Assembly: GCA_000310025.1 (NCBI GenBank)
Contig: FN649731.1
Location: 1,200,349 to 1,229,543, forward strand
Reading direction: 5' to 3'
Length of the DNA stretch: 29,195 nucleotides
Origin: Ectocarpus siliculosus
Taxonomy: Eukaryota > Sar > Phaeophyceae > Ectocarpales > Ectocarpaceae
A program made the translations under genes and the position numbers. A model generated the notes under the pieces. That model searched no databases. It was given only the letters and a program-made list of their open reading frames with translations, and was not told where the DNA came from. Shown here piece after piece: positions 6,886 through 16,804 of the stretch. Each line of letters opens with the position of its first letter. Position 1 is the stretch's first letter.

Positions 6886-8667
6886 ATCAATAATTAATTC
6901 TATTTTGAAAGTAAGAAGGTATGAACCACGTGTATTCTATTGGTAGAGTCCACCCTCAAAAAGGTGTGTTTCTGATCCACTTTTTTGTCGTATTTTTCGC
7001 GAATTTATCACCCTCTGTTTCTCTACGAAATAGTTCGTAACTACTTACTGTGGGCTCGTACCGCTGTACGCCATTCAAACTAGAATTTATTCCCTCTGAA
7101 CGTCGAGATGGATTGGAGTATTACACTCAGATTAACTCACCATACCTTTCGATAGAAGACCAGATTCACGTAAGACACCACACAGAGCCAGGCATGGACA
7201 AGGGGGAGGGAGACACACACCGCAGCGAGAGCGAGACGGGAGCAGTCAGTTCTCATCGGATCATCGGGGGCGGGATGAAACCCGCACACAAGTTTTCTTA
7301 TACGCTTGTTTGAACAAATAAACAATCCGCAAACATCAACATTAGGGTGTTTGCGGATTGGTCTCAGGTCTTGGTCTTTGAAGTCGGAAGCAAGTCCAAA
7401 ACCAAGACCGGAATTGTGTTTCAAAACTGCTTGCGACGACTCGAGTGTGATGTTTTCGGTCTTGAGCATGCGGAATTTTCCAAGAAAGTTGCGTTCAATA
7501 CGACGGAGCCCCTTTGCCGGCGGCGGCAGACAGATGGTTGAGCCGACTCGGAACACCAAACATACTTATTTCCGACCTTCCGCCTCCAACCCAACAAGGC
7601 TACTATTACTCTACCTTACCTGTACCCTCACCCCCAGCTGACTAAGTAGTCATGGAGAATACTGATGGAGGAACGTACTCGCTCATCATGAACAGGCGGT
7701 TGGCCCAGTTCAGTTGCCGGGAGTGCATGGGAAGCGTAGCGCCGCAAACAGCTGAGGCATGCATGTGTGTACCCCTTCAGCACGCGAACAAGTTGTGATA
7801 CACATCGCAGTCAGTCGTTGACGGAGTCGATCGTTCCCCGTCAAACGAATCACCGCAGCACGGTCCACAGGACCCACGCGCTGCAGCTCCTACTCACGCT
7901 CCCACGCCGTTTGAAGCATCCCTAACTCCATCACCTCCGCCTCCCCCTGTCTGTGCCACACTCCTGAGACTCACCGCCTCACCCTCCTCACGCCGGCTTG
8001 ATGTGTCACTTATGAGCATGCATGCATGCATGTAGAGCGGCATGCTTCGGTTCACGCATATACATCTAAGATAACGCAAAAGTTGCACCATGTCGGCAGC
8101 ATGCAATGCGCATCGGGTCTGCGGTGCAGTGACTCTGTCTGACTGTCTGTCTGGCGGTAGTTGGTTCGCCATGGTGTCGCCTATGACGGCCGAGTTGTGT
8201 GTATTTCGGCAGCTCCACGGGATGGTGCGGCGTCTGCCGGGAGGACGTCGGGAGAAAACTGCAAGGGATCTTTGTAACCTATATGTGCTTTTGTGATTAG
8301 CACCATTTGGCATCACTGAAAACATTTCAGTGCATAGGCTTAGCTAGACTCAGAATAAGCCCATTATCCAGCTGGTTTTCCTCCCACCCACTGCACAGAC
8401 TTCATCGCATCCCTTCGACGGTGGTAATATGTCGAACAGGTTTGTAGTCGTCCAGTGATTGCATACATATTTTCTAAAATACGACGGGACCCCGAGGATG
8501 CACTACTTCCTTCCGCCTGCCGTAGATAGACCGGCCATCCAATATGTAGTTACCTTTTCACTGCGGCGCCAACAAATACTACTGTTCCACCGCCTTGCTC
8601 GTGCTCCGTCACAATCAAGTGTTTAATACATTTGTCTTACATCCTCTAACGTTGCCGTTGGCCGCAG
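6886..8667. other. Upstream region of gene 1; no exon identified
   Basis: Several overlapping frames exist (7050-7313, 7137-7559 minus, 7306-7641, 7894-8325 minus, 8090-8296), but none shows a domain or a phase-compatible splice pair. Perfect stems occur at 7323-7335/7348-7360 and 7367-7375/7401-7409. Any promoter and 5' exon of gene 1 probably lies here, because the next exon begins at a good acceptor (8667). Confidence 0.4.
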
Positions 8668-8673
8668 AAACAA

Positions 8674-9213
8674 ATGAAGGCCATGAAGAACAGCCTCCGG
8701 AAATTGGGGAAGAGGCACAGACGGGGAAAGGCGGAGGTTCCGAGGGACCCCCCGCGACTACACACGTCAACCCCATCGGAGGCTGGCATACCAACGCCGC
8801 CCTTTGGCGAAGAACAGACAAAAAAGAAGGAGGAGGGCCAGGAGCAGAGTAGCGTCCAACTCGAGCAAGACAAGCGTGAGAGGGAAACACCGAATGAAAA
8901 ACGCGCGGAAGATGGGCAGGAGAAACTGCAAGAGGACGATCCCGAGAAGCAGGGCGGAGGGGGACGTGAAGACAAAGCGGAGGAGGAAGGGAACGGACAG
9001 GTAAAACGTCCTGGGGAGGAGGGCGAGGAAGAGGGCCCAAAGGCCGAGAACGGGGGCTGCCGTGAGCGTGAGGAGGAAGCGACAGAGGAGGAAGGAGAAG
9101 GGCGGGAGGAACACCCAGAGGAAGATGCCAAAGACGGCTCGGAGCCCCAGAAGGATGAGAGAAGGGAACACAAAGACTCAACGGAGGATGTCGCAATGGA
9201 ACCGCTGGACGAG
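8674..9213 (+). CDS. Gene 1 exon A: charged, disordered N-terminal segment of the NB-ARC-TPR protein
   Basis: Encodes 180 residues. The first 20 are strongly basic (lysine/arginine-rich), followed by about 150 residues dominated by Glu, Lys, Gly, Arg and Gln with no hydrophobic core, which predicts a disordered polyampholyte. A pyrimidine-rich tract and CAG end at 8667, so the ATG at 8674 may be the start codon just inside a second exon (upstream exon 5' UTR), or the frame may continue from an unseen coding exon. The exon ends GAG with donor GTAAAC at 9214, phase 0, matching the next exon. The large opposite-strand frames here (8615-9250, 8646-9221) are mirror artefacts of Glu/Lys codons. Linking it to the NB-ARC exon is inference from phase, strand and order. 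Confidence 0.6.
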
Positions 9214-9340
9214 GTAAACAAGCATGTTGTGTGTTGCCACCCTCTCGCACTTCACGATGCCTTCGTGCATGTTTTTACTCCCCAGGGACTCCTACAGTAT
9301 TGCGTCCCCGTCTTTGAACGGGGACAGTCACAAGCGCGTA

Positions 9341-9703
9341 AGGCGTGCCCAAAACTGACCCGCCACTTCGGTTACCGAGAAGTACGAAGTAAGCTTGGAA
9401 AAGCTTGGAACATCGGACGACCTTGTTTTGGAGCCCTCCGCAGTGCCTAGCAAGCCGACGTTGATCTGGAATATCATAGGTTGCTGCATAGTGCTGATGA
9501 GTCACATCCATACGCTTGTCGGCTGTCAAGTTTGAGCCCCCATCTGACCAAAGGGGTCGAACATAAACACGAACAGTTGCGCTCATGCTTCTCCTTTACG
9601 TTCTTGTGCACATTTTCCTCTGTTTTCGTTCGTTTAGCGTTCACCTGAGGAGAAACAAAATGATGGAATGAGTGTCGAGGATTACTCCAGTCCGACCAAC
9701 GAG
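9341..9703 (+). repeat. Tandem intron-exon repeat, unit R1
   Basis: About 300 bp of intron beginning GCGTGCCC and ending at TTCGTTTAG, plus the following 66-nt exon. Units R2 (9749-10108) and R3 (11695-12072) repeat the same order. Spacing of R1 to R2 is 408 bp. Shared blocks include GGAATATCAT, CATCCATACGCTT and ATGCTTCTCC. Confidence 0.9.
9638..9703 (+). CDS. Gene 1 exon B1: 22-residue repeated microexon, copy 1
   Basis: Acceptor CGTTTAG ends at 9637 and donor GTACGT starts at 9704. The 66 nt encode 22 residues starting RSPEEKQ and ending SPTNE, phase 0 on both sides, so it can be included or skipped without a frame shift. Copies B2 and B3 keep the splice sites and frame. The peptide is short, polar and rich in Ser, Glu and Asp, and would extend the disordered linker between exon A and the NB-ARC module. 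This copy diverges most from the others (NDGM, DYSS). Confidence 0.75.
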
Positions 9704-9748
9704 GTACGTGGCACTACGGGGTGTCCCTCCCCAGGGACTACTCTCGTG

Positions 9749-10108
9749 AGGCGTGCCCAAGACTGACGCGTCACCTCTCTTGCCGAGAAGTACGAAGAAA
9801 GCTTGGAAAAGCTTCCAACATCACACGGAGCCTCTCAGCAGTGCATTGATCGCAAGTCGACGTTGACCTGGAATATCATGCGTATACTGCATAGTGCTGA
9901 TGAGCCACATCCATACGCTTGTCGGCTGTGAAGTTTGAGCCCCCATCTGACCAAAGGGGTCGGAACATAAATCACGAACAGTTGCGCTCATGCTTCTCCT
10001 CTACGTTCTTGTGCACATTTTCCTCTGTTTTCGTTCGTTTAGCGTTCACCTGACGAGAAACAAACGGAAGGAACAAGGGTCGAGGATGCCACCAGCCCGA
10101 CAACCGAG
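9749..10108 (+). repeat. Tandem intron-exon repeat, unit R2
   Basis: Second copy of the unit described at R1, with intron and exon conserved together. The DNA following its exon (10109-10150) matches that after exon B1 up to CTACTCTCG, where the LINE insertion interrupts the match. Confidence 0.9.
10043..10108 (+). CDS. Gene 1 exon B2: 22-residue repeated microexon, copy 2
   Basis: Acceptor TTTAG at 10042, donor GTAAGA at 10109, 66 nt, phase 0/0. The peptide starts RSPDEKQ, contains VEDATSP and ends TTE. It is closer to B3 than to B1. Substitutions leave length and frame intact, which fits protein-level selection, though recent duplication would look similar. Confidence 0.75.
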
Positions 10109-10150
10109 GTAAGAATCGCCACGTGATGGTCCTCCCCAGAGACTACTCTC

Positions 10151-11694
10151 GAAATTGCTTCACCGCCTGTGCACGCGGGGCGAACTCTTCTGGTTTGCAT
10201 GCCTTAGCGGTTAGACCATTGACCATGCGTCCTCGAGAGGACGGAGAAATGTTCCCACAAGACCGATCACCGATGGCCAATCGTCCCATCCTACTTTGCC
10301 AAATGTGGCTCAAAAATGTTGTCCCTAGCCCATCTATCCTATCGACATCACCTCCCGCCTCTTCAACCCACTCCCTATGCCCCAGTATGGCTACCGTCTT
10401 CTACTGGCAATGCTAAGCTTCAAACATCTCCCTGTACCTTCCTTCTACTTTTCCCAGTTCAATCATGTACACTTCCTTTCTCCTTCTTGTACAATGGACA
10501 TTCCGCAACTACATGAACGCGGTCTTCGCACTCGGAGCCGCATTCACATTTCAACTTGTCGTCTTCATTGTCTACCTTTCGAAATCTTCGTCTACGTTCT
10601 CGAAGACCAATGTCCCAGATCCTAAATTCGACCTCCAGCTTTGTCCTTGCATCCATTGGTCCATTTAGGTAATCCTTGAACCCTTTGCCTTCTTTTAACA
10701 TTCCGTACACATGCAGACCCTCTTTATCCTTGGTGTCTTTGGTTAGATTCTGTTCTTCTTTCTAGGCAAACACACCAGATATCTTCTCCTTGAACCCCTT
10801 TTAGACCCTCCGTTAGCATATCGCCATCGTCAATTTTGAACCCCTTCCATACGTCATCTACTCTTGACCTACTTCGTTCGTTGTCTACCCCTCTTTTTGT
10901 GTGCCCACTTCGCATCCCAAGCTGTTCCCGGCAACCTCTCTTCTCCCACACCGCACATGCGGTACTGTCATTTTTGCTCCCTTGCGTCTCTTCAGGTGGT
11001 AGGGATTGGATCCCCAGTTCTGCCCTGACGGTTGCATTACTTGTGCTCTTGGAGCATCCTAGGATGATTTTTGCTGATTTCGTCCGCGCTACCTCGAGCT
11101 CTTTGAATACTACTTCTAGTATATGTTTCCTTCCCATGCTTTTCCGGCGTACTCTAGCGGCGGTACGATTACGCTCTTCAAAACTGTCAATTTGGTGCGT
11201 GTATCGAGGTGCCGGTTGGCTATTATTGGATACAGTTTCCCTGCTCGTGCTTTTGTCCTTTCCGCTACCTTGGTCATGTGCGCATTCCATCTACAGCAGT
11301 CTTTTGCGATCTCTTCCCCGAGATATGTGTACTGATCTACTATTGCAAGCTCCCCTACCCCCCTTCATCTTTTTCTCTATTGGTTTCTCCCTGTCCTCGT
11401 TGCATACCATGACGGCACTCTTCTTAACGTTAGCAGACAATCTCCGCTCACCAACAAAATCCTTCGCTGCGTCAATATGCGGTTGAAGTCCCTCAGGGGT
11501 ATCCGCCATCCCAACAACATCACCCGCAAACAGCATTCTCTACGCCGTAGTTTCCCTACCTTTACCCCTTTCCCAACTGTATCTACGACTTTCAACAGAT
11601 CGTTGATGAACACCTAGAACAATCTTGGGGGCAAAGTGCAACCTTGTGGGAGCCTGTTCAATGTTGAAAATTTAGTGTGAACAGGCAGCCAACA
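10151..11694 (-). pseudogene. 5'-truncated, decayed LINE (non-LTR retrotransposon) fragment
   Basis: Lies minus-strand inside the intron between exons B2 and B3; the surrounding intron repeat resumes at 11695. Read on the minus strand, pieces appear in order. First is an RT segment around 11690-11614 (QGCTLPP), then FINDLLKVVD (about 11613) and FAGDVVGMADTPEGLQ (11536 downward). Next are KIILGCSKSTSNA (about 11040) and VDDVWKG. Last is a C-terminal CECG...HVVAEC zinc-finger-like stretch (about 10540-10470). It is dead: an in-frame TAG follows the PPRLF segment, a frameshift precedes FAGD, and the catalytic FADD reads FAGD. The N-terminal half is absent. No poly(A) tail or target duplication is visible. 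Confidence 0.8.
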
Positions 11695-12072
11695 GCGTGC
11701 CCAAGACTGACGCGCCCCTTCCGTTGTCGAGAAGTACGATGAATGCTTGGAAAAGCTTGGAACCTCAAGCGACCTACTGCTGGAGCCCCCACAGTGCATA
11801 TATAGCAAGTCAACGTTGACCAGGAATATCATACGTATGCTGCTTAGTGCTGACGAGCAACATCCATACGCTTATCAGCTGTGAAGTTTAAGCCCGTAGC
11901 TGACCAAAAGGGTCGAGCACAGAACACGGACAGTGGCGCTCATGCTTCTCCTCTACGTTCTTGTGCGCATTTTCGTGCACATTTTCCTCTGTTGCCGTTC
12001 GTTTAGCGTTCACCTGAGGGGAAACAAACGGATGGGACAAGGGTCGAGGATGCCACCAGCCCGACCAACGAG
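11695..12072 (+). repeat. Tandem intron-exon repeat, unit R3
   Basis: Third copy of the unit described at R1, slightly longer because of a duplicated TTTTCNTGCACA segment near 11965-11985. The similarity stops soon after its exon, at about 12080. Confidence 0.9.
12007..12072 (+). CDS. Gene 1 exon B3: 22-residue repeated microexon, copy 3
   Basis: Acceptor TTTAG at 12006, donor GTACGT at 12073, 66 nt, phase 0/0. The peptide starts RSPEGKQ and ends SPTNE. The next compatible acceptor is at 13553, also phase 0, so this exon would be spliced to the NB-ARC exon across a 1.48-kb intron. Confidence 0.75.
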
Positions 12073-13553
12073 GTACGTGGTGTGACAAAACTTATTCAGC
12101 GGACGTGTCGAGCTCGTCCATTACGTCTGGAAAAGTACATTGCGTGAAAAATTCCACTTCTTCACACCAGGTTCTCCGGCATATTGCGTACTGTGGGCCC
12201 CCCAAGTGGTGGTAGAAACGGTCAAGCGTCAAGCTCATGGCGATTCCCCAAGCTCTTCTGTGTCCCGTGTGCGTGAGGCTTTGTGGCCGTTGTTCATGGG
12301 TTTTGGGTTGTCCGTAGCATAACCATATTGTAGAAATGGGAATGCTATTTGGGCTTTGACGTACCGCCGCGAACGGGGTGCCCTTCTGCCTGGATGCCGT
12401 CAATTTTACGCCCCCTTTGAGGAAAACGGTCTAGGCATGGGTAGTGAACCCGAAACGAAGAAGAAATTACGTGTGTAGCCACCCAGCTCAACATCAATTT
12501 AAGCCCAGCATTGCTCAAGTCTGGAGTGGGGAAATAATTCAATATGTTCACGGGTTTACTCGGCAATTTACCGCCTTGAAAGTACCGGTATACCGCCGGT
12601 TTAGCCGCCTCCACCACATTCGTTACCGTCGTATGGCGTTGCTGCAGAGAAGTACGGCCATATGTTCGTTTCACCGCCTCCGCCAAAGTCGTTACCACCG
12701 AAAAATGCCATACCGCCTACCGTAAAATACCGCCATGTGAGACAAATTACCGCCATTTACCGCCAACGGGAAAGTGGCCGATGGGCTGAGTGGGCAGACG
12801 CCTCGTCTCGTCGACTGCCCGAGCAAAGCAGGGGTTCGATTCCATGCAGGATACTCGCTTATATCGTTTTTACTTGGTTTGCCTCAAGTTTTGATGTTAA
12901 CACGTGGAAATCGCTGGTGAAAATTCCAAGCATGTGTACAGATTAACCGTCGGACAACAAAAAGCACCTTTCGTTCGGGCACCCTAGCTTAGCACCGCAA
13001 TGGTCGCTTGGTTGGTGTCTTATTCTTACAACCACATGGCGTTCATCGCCGCCGTGAAATTTCCGTCCTGTTGGACGGCACTGCCGCCGGTTTACGCCGT
13101 TTCTCTGTGTCACCGCTTCCGCGAAGGTCGTTTCCGCCGAAAAACTCAAATACCGCCTACCGCCGAGATTTTTCCGCCGTATGGCATTGCCGCCGAGCCA
13201 TCATTGCTGTTTTTTTTTGTTCTCCCGCCTACACCACAGTCGGTACCGCCGAAAACACATGACAGTTCTGCGTACCGCCGGAAAGACTACCGTTGTTTGA
13301 CATTATGACCGTTGCCGTTGCGCCTATAAAAACCGTTACCGAGTCAACCCCTGGAATTTTTCGAATGCTACTGCTGTAGGCCCATACTTCTAGCGTGCTT
13401 TGACGTATGTACAACCCGTGCAAATCATAAAGTTTCAAGTTAACGTTGAAGTTGAAGCCTTGCGCGATTTTGAAGCCTACCCTGATGACAAAGTAGAGCT
13501 AGAGCATGTAAAACTCTTGATAATGCTCAACTCCATTTCGCACCCCCCTGCAG
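12073..13553 (+). other. Gene 1 last intron, with TACCGCC-rich degenerate repeats
   Basis: Donor GTACGT at 12073, acceptor CCCCCCTGCAG at 13553. Two blocks (about 12560-12770 and 13070-13300) are dense in TACCGCC/CCGCCG and share degenerate ~60-bp units of the form CCGCCTNCNCCANAGTCG-TACCGCCGAAAA. These explain the Arg/Pro-rich short frames there. A minus-strand frame at 12092-12403 shows no recognisable domain. Confidence 0.6.
12782..12860 (+). other. tRNA-like sequence / possible SINE head
   Basis: An A-box-like TGGGCTGAGTGG (12782-12793) and a consensus B box GGTTCGATTCC (12833-12843) are spaced as in a tRNA gene. The T-stem pairs poorly and no acceptor stem closes, so this is not a functional tRNA. 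It could be the pol III promoter of a tRNA-derived SINE whose body includes the neighbouring CCGCC-rich DNA. Confidence 0.4.
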
Positions 13554-16500
13554 GAGGAAACAAGGACGAAGAGGCTGGACAGCATAGCCAAGAGTCCTGC
13601 CGAGGCCCCACTGCTTCAAGACTGGTTCATACAACGTGAGCCGGTAGTTGCTGCGATATGCGACCGTCTCGGAGTCAACGATCGTGGCCGCAGCAGAGCC
13701 TCGGGGGAGCCGCCGGTGGTCGGCGTAGCGGGACCAAGCGGCGCCGGAAAGTCAACCATTGCCTCGATGATCGTCGCTCGGCACGACGTGCGAGGGCATT
13801 TCTCCCAGAAGGGAGTTGTTTGGCTCTCCGTTGGCCAGGGGGCGCGGGACCGCCTTCTGGACGTCATGTACCGTCTTGCCGTCATGGTGCACGAGCTCGC
13901 AGACTCGTCGTCGTCCCCCGACGACGGCCCGTTCAGACCACCTCGGACGCCGGACATCGGAGTGGAACCCGAGGACGGGGCGGCGTACGTTCGTGAGATC
14001 CTAGCGGCGGACGAGGGCGAACGGAGCAGTGGCGGTTTCGGGGAGTTGCTGGTGGTAGCCGATGATGTCTGGGAAGCTGAGGTTTTGGCGGAGCTGAGGA
14101 ACACGGGGGCGTCGATCCTCTACACCACTCGGTCCGAAGAGGATCTGCTGGCGGCCAGCGGCGGTAGTTCCGTCCTACGAGTAGATGAGGTCACGGAGGG
14201 GGAGGCCGAAGAATTACTCCGCAGGGCAGCCGCCCTCCTCGACTATTCCAAGCTTCCGGATGCAGCTCATGACATCATTCGACGGGGTGGATCCGTGGCG
14301 ATGGACGTCGCCTACGTGGGGAGATGGGACATAGTCCGCGGCAAAAACGACCAGGCAGCGTGGGCGGCGGTGTTAGCCCACGTCATCGACGCCCAGAACT
14401 TCATGAAGGGAGCCGCGCTGCTGCCTTGGAGATCAGCCGTGCTTCGGGTCGGGGTGACCAGGTTAGGGCTTGCTGACCAGGGCACCAAGGAGCTCTACCT
14501 GTCCTTGGGGGTCCTACCTCGCAACCTTTCCTTTTCGGTTGACGACGTCACCGCACTTGTGAGCGACGGCTCGGCTGAAGAACTTCAAGCGGCGACACTA
14601 GCCATGGCAACCCTCGAACAGTGGTCCGTGTTGGTGAGAACAGAAGGGGGAAGGTACCGGGTACACCACTCGCACGCGGATATGGCCTGGCAGGGTATAT
14701 CCGAAGACCCAGCTATCTTGGGCCCAGCTCTAGCAAGGTGGCGGAACCGCGTATCCACGGCAGAGGCAGTGTTAACTTGGCGTACCGAGGAGCTTGTGGA
14801 CATCTGGGAGACTATATGGAGCCTGGAAATCGGCGAGGGGGCTGAAGATATTGGCCAACCCTACGCTGAAACTGTCGACGCTATGGACCTCTCGGATGCC
14901 GGCGCATTTCAGCTTCTTCGTCGGATTGCGTTCTTCCAGTGGCTGACAAATGAACCCGATGCGGCCTGCATGTCCTGGTCGAAGTTGCTCGCCTCGGGCG
15001 AGGACTCCGCTGCGAACCATCCGGACGTACACGTGACCATGTATACGCTCGGGGCGCACGCGTTGATTTCAGGGCGGACACCCGAAGCCGAGGGTTGGTT
15101 CAGGCGAACATTGGCCATCGAAGAAAAAGTTCTCGATTCTGACGACGCCGCCATCGCAGATACGCTTCATCAGATCGCGTTGTGCGCGTTTCGCGAGGGC
15201 AGGGTGAAAGAAGCGGAGTCGTTTCACTTGCGCGCCCTGGCCGTCAGAGAGAGCTTGAAAGGCCACGAGCATCTGGACGTGGCCAGAACCTTACACTCGC
15301 TCGGCTTGTGCATCTTGAAAATGAATACCAGAGCCAAGGAAGCCGAGGGATATTTCCGTAGAGCGCTGCGGATCTTCTCGGAGAAGCTGGGAGCGACAGA
15401 CACCAAGGCTTCTACCGCAATGTACGACCTCGGACGCTGTCTTTCGTCGGCAGGGCAGACCAGAGAAGCTGAAGAGTACCTCCAGAGGGCCCTGTCCATT
15501 CAGGGAAATAGGCAGGGCCTCAAGAGCCCTGCAGTGGCGGACACGCTGTACGCACTGGGAGGATGTATGGCAGACGCGGGGCAGCCTGCGGTTGCGGGTG
15601 TCTTCTACAGGCGAGCGCTCGCTATCCGAGAAGAGAGCCTGGGTGTGGATGATCCATCAACCGTGCGAACCGTGCGCGCCCTCGCGCAGGTGCTGCTCGA
15701 CACTGGGTACACCGAGGAAGCGCAAGACTTGTTCCAGAGAGCGCTCGTGAGCGTGGAGAACTCTCTCGGCAGCAACCACCGTGAGGTGGCCGTGCTGTTT
15801 CATGGCCTTGGAGCGTGCGCTCTAGCCGAACAGAAGCCCGAGGAAGCCGAGCAGCAGTTTAAGAGGGCTCTGGCCATCAGAGAGAGGTCTCTGGGGGCTG
15901 ACCAGTCAAGCATCGCGCATACCCTGTACGACTTAGGAAGGTGTGCATCGCAGGCCGGGCGGATGCAACAAGCGGAGGATTTCTACCGAAGATCGCTCAT
16001 GATTGAGGAAGCGAACCTAGGCGAACACCACGAGGAGGTGGCTACCGTGCTGTACTCCCTCTCTGTGTGCGTGGCGGAGCAGGGGGGGCGCAACAAGGAG
16101 GTGGAGGGTCTGCTTGAACGAGTCGTGGGGATCAAGGAGATAAACCGAAAGGCGATGAAACCGACGGAACGCAACGACGTAGAGCTCGCAGACATCCTCG
16201 GCGGGCTAGGGGCTGCCTCTTTCCGGGCAGGCCATCTGGACGCTGCGGCTAAGCATATCCGTCATGCTCTAGCGATCTACGAGAAGGCGCTGGATGCTCA
16301 CCACCCCAAGATATCCTTCACACTAAACGCGCTGGGCAAGTGCCTGTTGAAGGCGGGTCGAGCGGAGGAGGCCGAAGTGTCTTTCCGGCGGGTGCTGGAC
16401 ATGACCACCGCTGAAGGCGAGCACAAGGGGGGCGGAGACTCCGTCCACAACTGTAGCTATCCACCCATTGGCGACACTTTAGATTTTCTGGGACAATGCG

Positions 16501-16778
16501 CCATGTTCGAAGGGCGTACGGAGGAAGCGCGTCGACTGTTTCACCGTGCGCTCAAGGGAAGGGAAGATCACTTGGGCCCGGACCACCCCAGGGTTGCACT
16601 AACCCTGTACAGCATCGGACGATGTTTCTTCGACGAGGGCAACCTGGAAGAAGCCGAAAACCATCTCAACTGCGCGTTGTCGATACAGGAGAAAACGCTT
16701 GATCCTGAACACCCAGCCATAGCTGCCACCCAGGCCGGCCGCGAGTCCATCAAGCGGAAGCAAGTCTACTTTCGTTAA
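13554..16778 (+). CDS. Gene 1 main exon: NB-ARC / winged-helix / TPR receptor-like protein
   Basis: Encodes 1074 residues (about 247-1320 of the model). Known family role: STAND-type ATPase switches in which NB-ARC binds nucleotide and repeats sense a ligand. Visible in order: P-loop GPSGAGKST (from 13731), kinase-2/Walker B LLVVADDVW (DDVW at 14061-14072), RNBS-B-like ILYTTRS (about 14113), a GLPL-equivalent SVAMDVAYVGR (about 14290), a winged-helix segment KELYLSLGVLP (about 14486), and an MHD-like RVHHSHAD (about 14658). From about 15020 to 16720 there are about 13 TPRs of 42 residues, kinesin-light-chain style (LG-C...EAE-~RRAL-I-E--LG--HP); repeats 9 and 11 are irregular. The frame is open upstream to the acceptor at 13553 and the GTG at 13716 is not a start. 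There is no signal peptide or membrane span, so it is probably cytoplasmic. The TPR array has no introns. The stop lies inside a 26-bp tandem duplication. Confidence 0.9.
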   Translation, partial: EETRTKRLDSIAKSPAEAPLLQDWFIQREPVVAAICDRLGVNDRGRSRASGEPPVVGVAGPSGAGKSTIASMIVARHDVRGHFSQKGVVWLSVGQGARDRLLDVMYRLAVMVHELADSSSSPDDGPFRPPRTPDIGVEPEDGAAYVREILAADEGERSSGGFGELLVVADDVWEAEVLAELRNTGASILYTTRSEEDLLAASGGSSVLRVDEVTEGEAEELLRRAAALLDYSKLPDAAHDIIRRGGSVAMDVAYVGRWDIVRGKNDQAAWAAVLAHVIDAQNFMKGAALLPWRSAVLRVGVTRLGLADQGTKELYLSLGVLPRNLSFSVDDVTALVSDGSAEELQAATLAMATLEQWSVLVRTEGGRYRVHHSHADMAWQGISEDPAILGPALARWRNRVSTAEAVLTWRTEELVDIWETIWSLEIGEGAEDIGQPYAETVDAMDLSDAGAFQLLRRIAFFQWLTNEPDAACMSWSKLLASGEDSAANHPDVHVTMYTLGAHALISGRTPEAEGWFRRTLAIEEKVLDSDDAAIADTLHQIALCAFREGRVKEAESFHLRALAVRESLKGHEHLDVARTLHSLGLCILKMNTRAKEAEGYFRRALRIFSEKLGATDTKASTAMYDLGRCLSSAGQTREAEEYLQRALSIQGNRQGLKSPAVADTLYALGGCMADAGQPAVAGVFYRRALAIREESLGVDDPSTVRTVRALAQVLLDTGYTEEAQDLFQRALVSVENSLGSNHREVAVLFHGLGACALAEQKPEEAEQQFKRALAIRERSLGADQSSIAHTLYDLGRCASQAGRMQQAEDFYRRSLMIEEANLGEHHEEVATVLYSLSVCVAEQGGRNKEVEGLLERVVGIKEINRKAMKPTERNDVELADILGGLGAASFRAGHLDAAAKHIRHALAIYEKALDAHHPKISFTLNALGKCLLKAGRAEEAEVSFRRVLDMTTAEGEHKGGGDSVHNCSYPPIGDTLDFLGQCAMFEGRTEEARRLFHRALKGREDHLGPDHPRVALTLYSIGRCFFDEGNLEEAENHLNCALSIQEKTLDPEHPAIAATQAGRESIKRKQVYFR

Positions 16779-16804
16779 AGCGAAAGCAAGTCTACTTTCG
16801 TTGG
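16754..16804 (+). repeat. 26-bp tandem duplication spanning the gene 1 stop codon
   Basis: GCGGAAGCAAGTCTACTTTC (16754 on) is repeated as GCGAAAGCAAGTCTACTTTC (16780 on). The TAA at 16776-16778 lies at the junction. The period is not a multiple of three. Confidence 0.9.

Follow-up and report, generated by a model that had tools for sequence, protein, structure and literature searches.

The window, that is the whole stretch of 29,195 nucleotides of Ectocarpus siliculosus DNA analysed here, carries on its forward strand a candidate receptor gene made up of an acidic leader frame, three putative small exons, and a long frame encoding an NB-ARC domain and TPRs (Table 1). The leader is of low complexity, with glutamate and aspartate making up 31% of its residues, and it has no Pfam or NCBIfam match. 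By codon usage it is the best of the six frames, at 0.39 bits/codon. A possible phase-0 acceptor (CAG) is found just 5′ of this frame, so that the ATG at 8674 is not necessarily the start of the gene. At the other end, the NB-ARC frame begins in phase 0, with CCCTGCAG followed directly by GAG. The NB-ARC domain is recognized by Pfam (PF00931, E 1.4e-11, 44.6 bits against a cut-off of 23.5), and 3′ of it in the same frame come nine stretches matching TPR_12 (E 2.9e-86). All TPR matches fall within this one open frame, and the TPRs are not on separate shuffled exons, which are a trait of one subgroup of NB-ARC-TPR genes. A 26-bp sequence is repeated twice at 16752-16802, spanning the stop codon that closes the NB-ARC-TPR frame.

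Table 1. Features of the candidate gene and its introns (positions are those of the window; exon and intron limits are predicted)
Feature	Position	Strand	Remarks
Leader exon candidate, 180-aa acidic low-complexity frame	8674..9213	+	Open frame, ends GAG/GTAAAC, phase 0
Intron 1 (424 nt)	9214..9637	+	Holds first intron-tail copy (from 9343) and outlying CTCCCCAGGGACT block at 9278
66-nt exon copy 1, 22 codons	9638..9703	+	Donor GTACGT
Intron 2 (339 nt)	9704..10042	+	Duplication junction at ~9725-9750, then second intron-tail copy
66-nt exon copy 2	10043..10108	+	Donor GTAAGA
Truncated, probably old LINE (non-LTR retrotransposon) fragment	~10177..11675	-	In intron 3, between unit copies 2 and 3
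Repeated intron tail, third copy	11695..12006	+	3′ of the LINE
66-nt exon copy 3	12007..12072	+	Donor GTACGT
Intron 4 (1481 nt)	12073..13553	+	Dispersed repeats inside
NB-ARC plus TPR exon, 1074 aa, single open frame	13554..16778	+	Pfam; phase-0 entry after CCCTGCAG

Three copies of an intron-exon unit

Within 9343-12120, a unit of about 400 bp, composed of an intron tail, a 66-nt open exon and a donor, is present three times, with copies starting at 9343, 9751, and 11695 as located by repeat search and alignment. Two or more homologous intron-exon blocks, in this case three, are therefore found in one gene. An nhmmer model built from these same three copies yields exactly three matches in the window (E 1.6e-144 to 6.8e-143) and no fourth. 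The original prediction spoke of three tandem copies: their number is borne out by nhmmer and by the repeat families, but only copies 1 and 2 are truly in tandem, lying head to tail with a period of about 405. From the start of copy 2 to that of copy 3 there are 1944 nt, because a LINE fragment of about 1.5 kb lies between them.

The intron part common to the three copies covers some 285-295 aligned nucleotides 5′ of the exon. In each copy CGTTCGTTTAG directly precedes the 66-nt stretch, whose 22 open codons are preceded by AG and followed by GTA. Phase 0 is the sole forward frame of the three that is open in all three exon copies. As its length is a multiple of three and its phase 0/0, the putative exon fits both flanking frames at the splice boundaries predicted from the sequence, and all eight inclusion patterns of the three exons read through, giving proteins of 1254-1320 aa. 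It had been proposed that acceptor, donor, frame and symmetric phase were all kept, and that gain, loss or skipping of the exon would do the protein no damage; as far as the reading frame goes, both statements are supported by these AG and GTA ends and by the phase-0 joins to the leader and NB-ARC-TPR frames. The amplified unit also lies where it was expected, before the NB-ARC domain and outside the TPR repeats delimited by Pfam. The duplication of an intron with its exon is thus real, symmetric and of an already known kind, but in an unusual place.

The ends of the duplicated segment can be approached from the introns. A block, CCTCCCCAGRGACTACTCTCG, starts 22 nt past donors 1 and 2, and the 21 nt found 22-43 nt past the donor are common to these two copies only. 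This junction block is absent past donor 3, where only 8 nt match, and the outlying sequence listed in intron 1 also matches it. Such a placement puts the duplication breakpoints within introns, close to the block and shortly beyond the donor.

The same block has an acceptor-like CCCCAG 22 nt past donors 1 and 2 (9725-9746 and 10130-10151), followed in copy 2 by a donor-like GTGAGG, and GTAAGG stands ahead of copy 1, all of which are probably due to chance; a hidden micro-exon at this site was rejected by eye, as it would break the frame. An origin of the 22-residue module in the final part of the leader, or in the first part of the NB-ARC exon, was also rejected, the best p-value against shuffles being about 0.28.

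The LINE fragment is 83% like many dispersed copies in the genome. With 40 of 2116 candidates scored, at least 41 matches lie elsewhere; 39 of the 41 listed begin at the equivalent of window position 10177, and 17 of the 41 reach the equivalent of 11675. Three relatives that were fetched are 99.1-99.5% alike mutually and 83% like the window copy, and in one of them RVT_1 is recognized (E 6.3e-16), whereas RVT_1 matches in the window copy are below threshold and lie in two frames (E 0.04 and 0.17). This distance from relatives that are about 99% alike, together with the weak RVT_1 matches, suggests that the fragment is old or belongs to an older subfamily. Its position past the junction block of copy 2 makes insertion after the duplication most likely. 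Its divergence of 17% is no smaller than that between the introns of the unit copies (10.5-16.5%), a figure that would fit either exchange between the copies at a later time or a LINE subfamily of greater age. In intron 4, positions 12560-13360 contain dispersed ACCGCC-rich repeats with at least 79 matches in the genome, their own copy included (40 of 70 candidates scored). ARAGORN found no tRNA in the window, despite a tRNA-like piece spotted by eye near 12790-12850.

Divergence among the copies

The original prediction held that the exon would have changed less than its intron, and it named beforehand, among the results that would speak against its interpretation, equal divergence of the two together with frame-breaking changes in other strains. 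Equal divergence, one half of that test, is what was found. In any copy, 15 of the 66 exon sites vary, compared with 57 of 285 in the intron (p=0.61). Taken by pairs, exon and intron differences amount to 13/66 and 30/285 for copies 1-2 (p=0.058), 11/66 and 45/294 for copies 1-3 (p=0.85), and 6/66 and 48/291 for copies 2-3 (p=0.18). An exon better conserved than its intron is thus not supported by these counts. The Nei-Gojobori dN/dS ratios between copies are 0.88, 0.68, and 0.60, each estimated from only 14-16 synonymous sites.

Such figures would be expected if the 66-nt pieces were not exons at all, the intron having been tandemly duplicated along with an open frame and AG/GT ends that came from a single chance or dead exon. 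Retention of the frame by chance is indeed not improbable. In simulations that place 6-13 random substitutions in the exon, 65-81% of runs produce no stop codon; were indels as frequent as in the intron, the exon would escape them with a probability of 0.33-0.51 per pair; and among noncoding 66-nt windows, 1615 out of 3834 have no stop in the frame considered. The open frames by themselves therefore say little for exon use. The module also has no relative in the paralogue stretches described below. We nonetheless consider this explanation unlikely, since donors and acceptors are kept in all three copies, the phase fits both flanking frames, and the run-up to the acceptor is the most conserved part of all three units. 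The last 60 intron alignment columns vary least (3/48 sites, compared with 54/237 elsewhere in the intron, p=0.009) and less than the exon itself (p=0.020), these p-values being unadjusted and the region having been picked after looking. The conserved run-up modestly favours the idea that the putative exons are really spliced. Codon usage points in the same direction, phase 0 being the best of six frames in all three exon copies, although these are not independent of one another. Among open noncoding 66-nt windows drawn from the same noncoding stretches, 11% score as high as copy 1, 4.7% as high as copy 2 and 1.3% as high as copy 3. To judge from the alignment, the splice signals look kept, and constraint at the protein level is not apparent at the low power of these comparisons.

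The three copies form a mosaic, described here by segments picked after looking and by unadjusted p-values. Of the 22 two-state sites in alignment columns 140-313, 17 set copy 3 apart from the other two, whereas in the exon it is copy 1 that stands apart, at 9 of 15 (p=0.0006 for the contrast). The longest run of agreement between copies 1 and 2 covers 10 of 72 sites and lies inside the intron (p=0.0016 against shuffles), that between copies 2 and 3 covers 7 sites inside the exon (p=0.0038), and that between copies 1 and 3 is not significant (p=0.16). Across columns 190-324 one aligned site differs between copies 1 and 2, whose first exon difference comes at base 12. Exon copy 1 carries private changes at 9 of its 66 sites, compared with 12 of 285 in its intron (p=0.008). 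Conversion between copies would be the simplest reading of this pattern, the alternative being a faster change of exon 1; the excess of private changes in that exon could also reflect decay.

In ROCO and NB-ARC-TPR genes, the repeat exons have been proposed to be under diversifying selection. If such selection acted on the modules here, the exons would outpace the intron since the linker would meet a pathogen or a partner. Between copies 1 and 2 the exon differs far more than the adjoining intron tract does (13/66 against 5/159, p=0.0001), the excess of private changes in exon 1 fits as well, and amino-acid changes account for 22 of the 30 pairwise differences (10/13, 8/11, and 4/6). That share, however, is close to the share of replacement sites, dN/dS stays below 1 in all three pairs, the contrast fades when the whole intron is taken (see the pairwise p-values above), and the low intron divergence between copies 1 and 2 looks like conversion. 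Selection of this kind is accordingly held to be improbable. Rather, the duplicated exon most likely lengthens a linker and drifts almost freely, as far as the differences between its copies suggest.

Relatives elsewhere in the genome

The genome searched comprises 189,456,909 bases in 492 contigs. A DNA search returned only the three copies of the unit (2 candidates scored), and a pattern search allowing up to three mismatches gave three forward hits, none in reverse and none for the control, within the reach left by N stretches and by skipped common words. Within that reach, both searches speak against the unit being a dispersed repeat. With the gene's first 289 residues as query, 37 matches were found genome-wide, including its own and with several being pieces of one gene. 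Used as query, the leader region found itself and, on C16, a stretch of 78 bases that corresponds to window positions 8400-8477 and thus lies outside the leader.

Six stretches around seven paralogues were fetched. Neither the leader nor the module has a relative in them by tblastn or nhmmer, which found the gene itself only, and window frames of at least 40 aa matched none of the six paralogue frame sets, in which the second gene of stretch L007 is left out. No acidic leader was seen in stretches L004-L006, where the listed frames of at least 70 aa in the last 5 kb contain at most 12% glutamate and aspartate, compared with 31% in the leader. On chromosome 21 (C21), three paralogues (L007-L009) have a common but different N-terminal frame of 177-236 aa, for which tblastn at E<=1 found nothing in the window and nothing in L004-L006. 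By these comparisons, the N-terminal part of the gene is peculiar to it among the stretches examined. As read from the DNA, all seven paralogues have an in-frame CAG at the equivalent position ahead of the NB-ARC frame; the next codon is GAG in five of them, GAA in another and GAT in the last. This supports a phase-0 boundary before the NB-ARC exon.

A gene decaying at its 5′ end might also look like this, with leader and modules as remnants and the working gene, if any, starting near the NB-ARC exon. Introns 3 and 4 are filled with the LINE and other repeats, and the N-terminal exon of the chromosome-21 paralogues has no counterpart here. Introns filled with transposable elements are however common in large genomes, the leader is open for 180 codons in the best of six frames, and the NB-ARC-TPR frame is intact over its 1074 aa, which together leave such decay very improbable.

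Two observations concern the paralogue stretches themselves. In L006, positions 7276-7851 (on the complement of the gene) hold copies repeated in tandem about every 229 bp and 76-79% alike; this array lies about 6 kb 5′ of an NB-ARC paralogue, has Pfam matches below cut-off only, and is perhaps another repeated intron-exon unit. Stretch L007 (G000:C21:3134700-3144699) carries two NB-ARC genes in inverted orientation; where their NB-ARC exons begin they are 96% alike across 424 bp, and in the upstream part 74-81%.

Origin and meaning of the array

On this evidence we find it fairly probable that a symmetric exon of an NB-ARC-TPR gene was tandemly duplicated, lengthening a disordered linker before the NB-ARC domain, and that it has since evolved almost neutrally. 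In such a scenario, the leader and NB-ARC exons would have been set apart by phase-0 introns, and the gene would have gained two extra blocks, each made of an intron tail, a 66-nt phase 0/0 exon and a donor, by unequal crossing-over or slippage. With both breakpoints in introns, one near the CTCCCCAGRGACT block and the other immediately beyond the donor, each duplication would have left the splice signals and the frame undamaged. Provided that the 66-nt pieces are spliced in, each copy would extend a flexible acidic stretch 5′ of the NB-ARC domain, presumably a disordered spacer, by 22 residues that are charged and rich in Ser, Thr and Pro. Later exchange may have homogenized the intron tract of copies 1 and 2 as the exons drifted under little protein-level constraint, and the LINE would then have come in and parted copy 2 from copy 3. 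What probably results is a variable linker length, perhaps through exon skipping, and not a new ligand specificity.

Tandem duplication of symmetric exons is generally marked by intronic breakpoints, symmetric phase and adjoining copies. The array differs in that its copies are mosaic and its exon is no better conserved than its intron. Among brown algal genes, the LRR exons of the ROCO family are described as being 72 bp long, in phase 2, alternatively spliced and each encoding one folded LRR (PMC11378527). Both systems consist of small repeated tandem exons of uniform phase in a candidate receptor, but the exon here is 66 bp long, in phase 0, of low-complexity charged composition, and has no domain match. 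Exon shuffling in NB-ARC-TPR and ROCO genes is cited in PMC12879055 and PMC8307928. The present gene resembles those NB-ARC-TPR genes in having an NB-ARC domain followed by TPRs and an amplified exon in a receptor gene, but here the amplified exon is 5′ of the NB-ARC domain, and the TPRs are all in one frame of 1074 codons. NB-ARC-TPR genes with shuffled TPR exons and an N-terminal four-helix bundle are reportedly the subject of work by Teng et al. in 2023 (Plant J). The N-terminal exon of the C21-type subgroup, perhaps that same four-helix bundle, is absent here, which is not family-defining. No paper found by title or abstract opening, a scope outside which Teng 2023 and Zambounis 2012 fall, names the array.

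A functional likeness, with no homology implied, exists with the PEVK region of titin, whose small exons encode a disordered charged spacer and are described as gained and lost by duplication, with LINE insertions in the region (PMC6469411). The array here has three copies and is not long, and its LINE, although lying inside it, looks later than the duplication and not its cause.

If the exons are used, amplification known from ligand-sensing repeats also occurs before the switch domain, and one gene may yield isoforms differing in linker length; with intron and exon of equal age next to each other, the locus would also offer a small natural test of how freely an exon for a disordered linker drifts. 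If they are not, the locus is a caution that one duplicated intron can yield three matching open exons. A more speculative proposal, to which we give a slim chance, is that the array serves as a length- and phosphorylation-tuning module, with zero to three modules included by alternative splicing setting the N-terminal reach or the switch threshold; in that case the variation would serve signalling instead of ligand sensing. Two Ser-Pro sites per exon are kept in all three copies, one within RSP at the start and the other as SP at codons 18-19.
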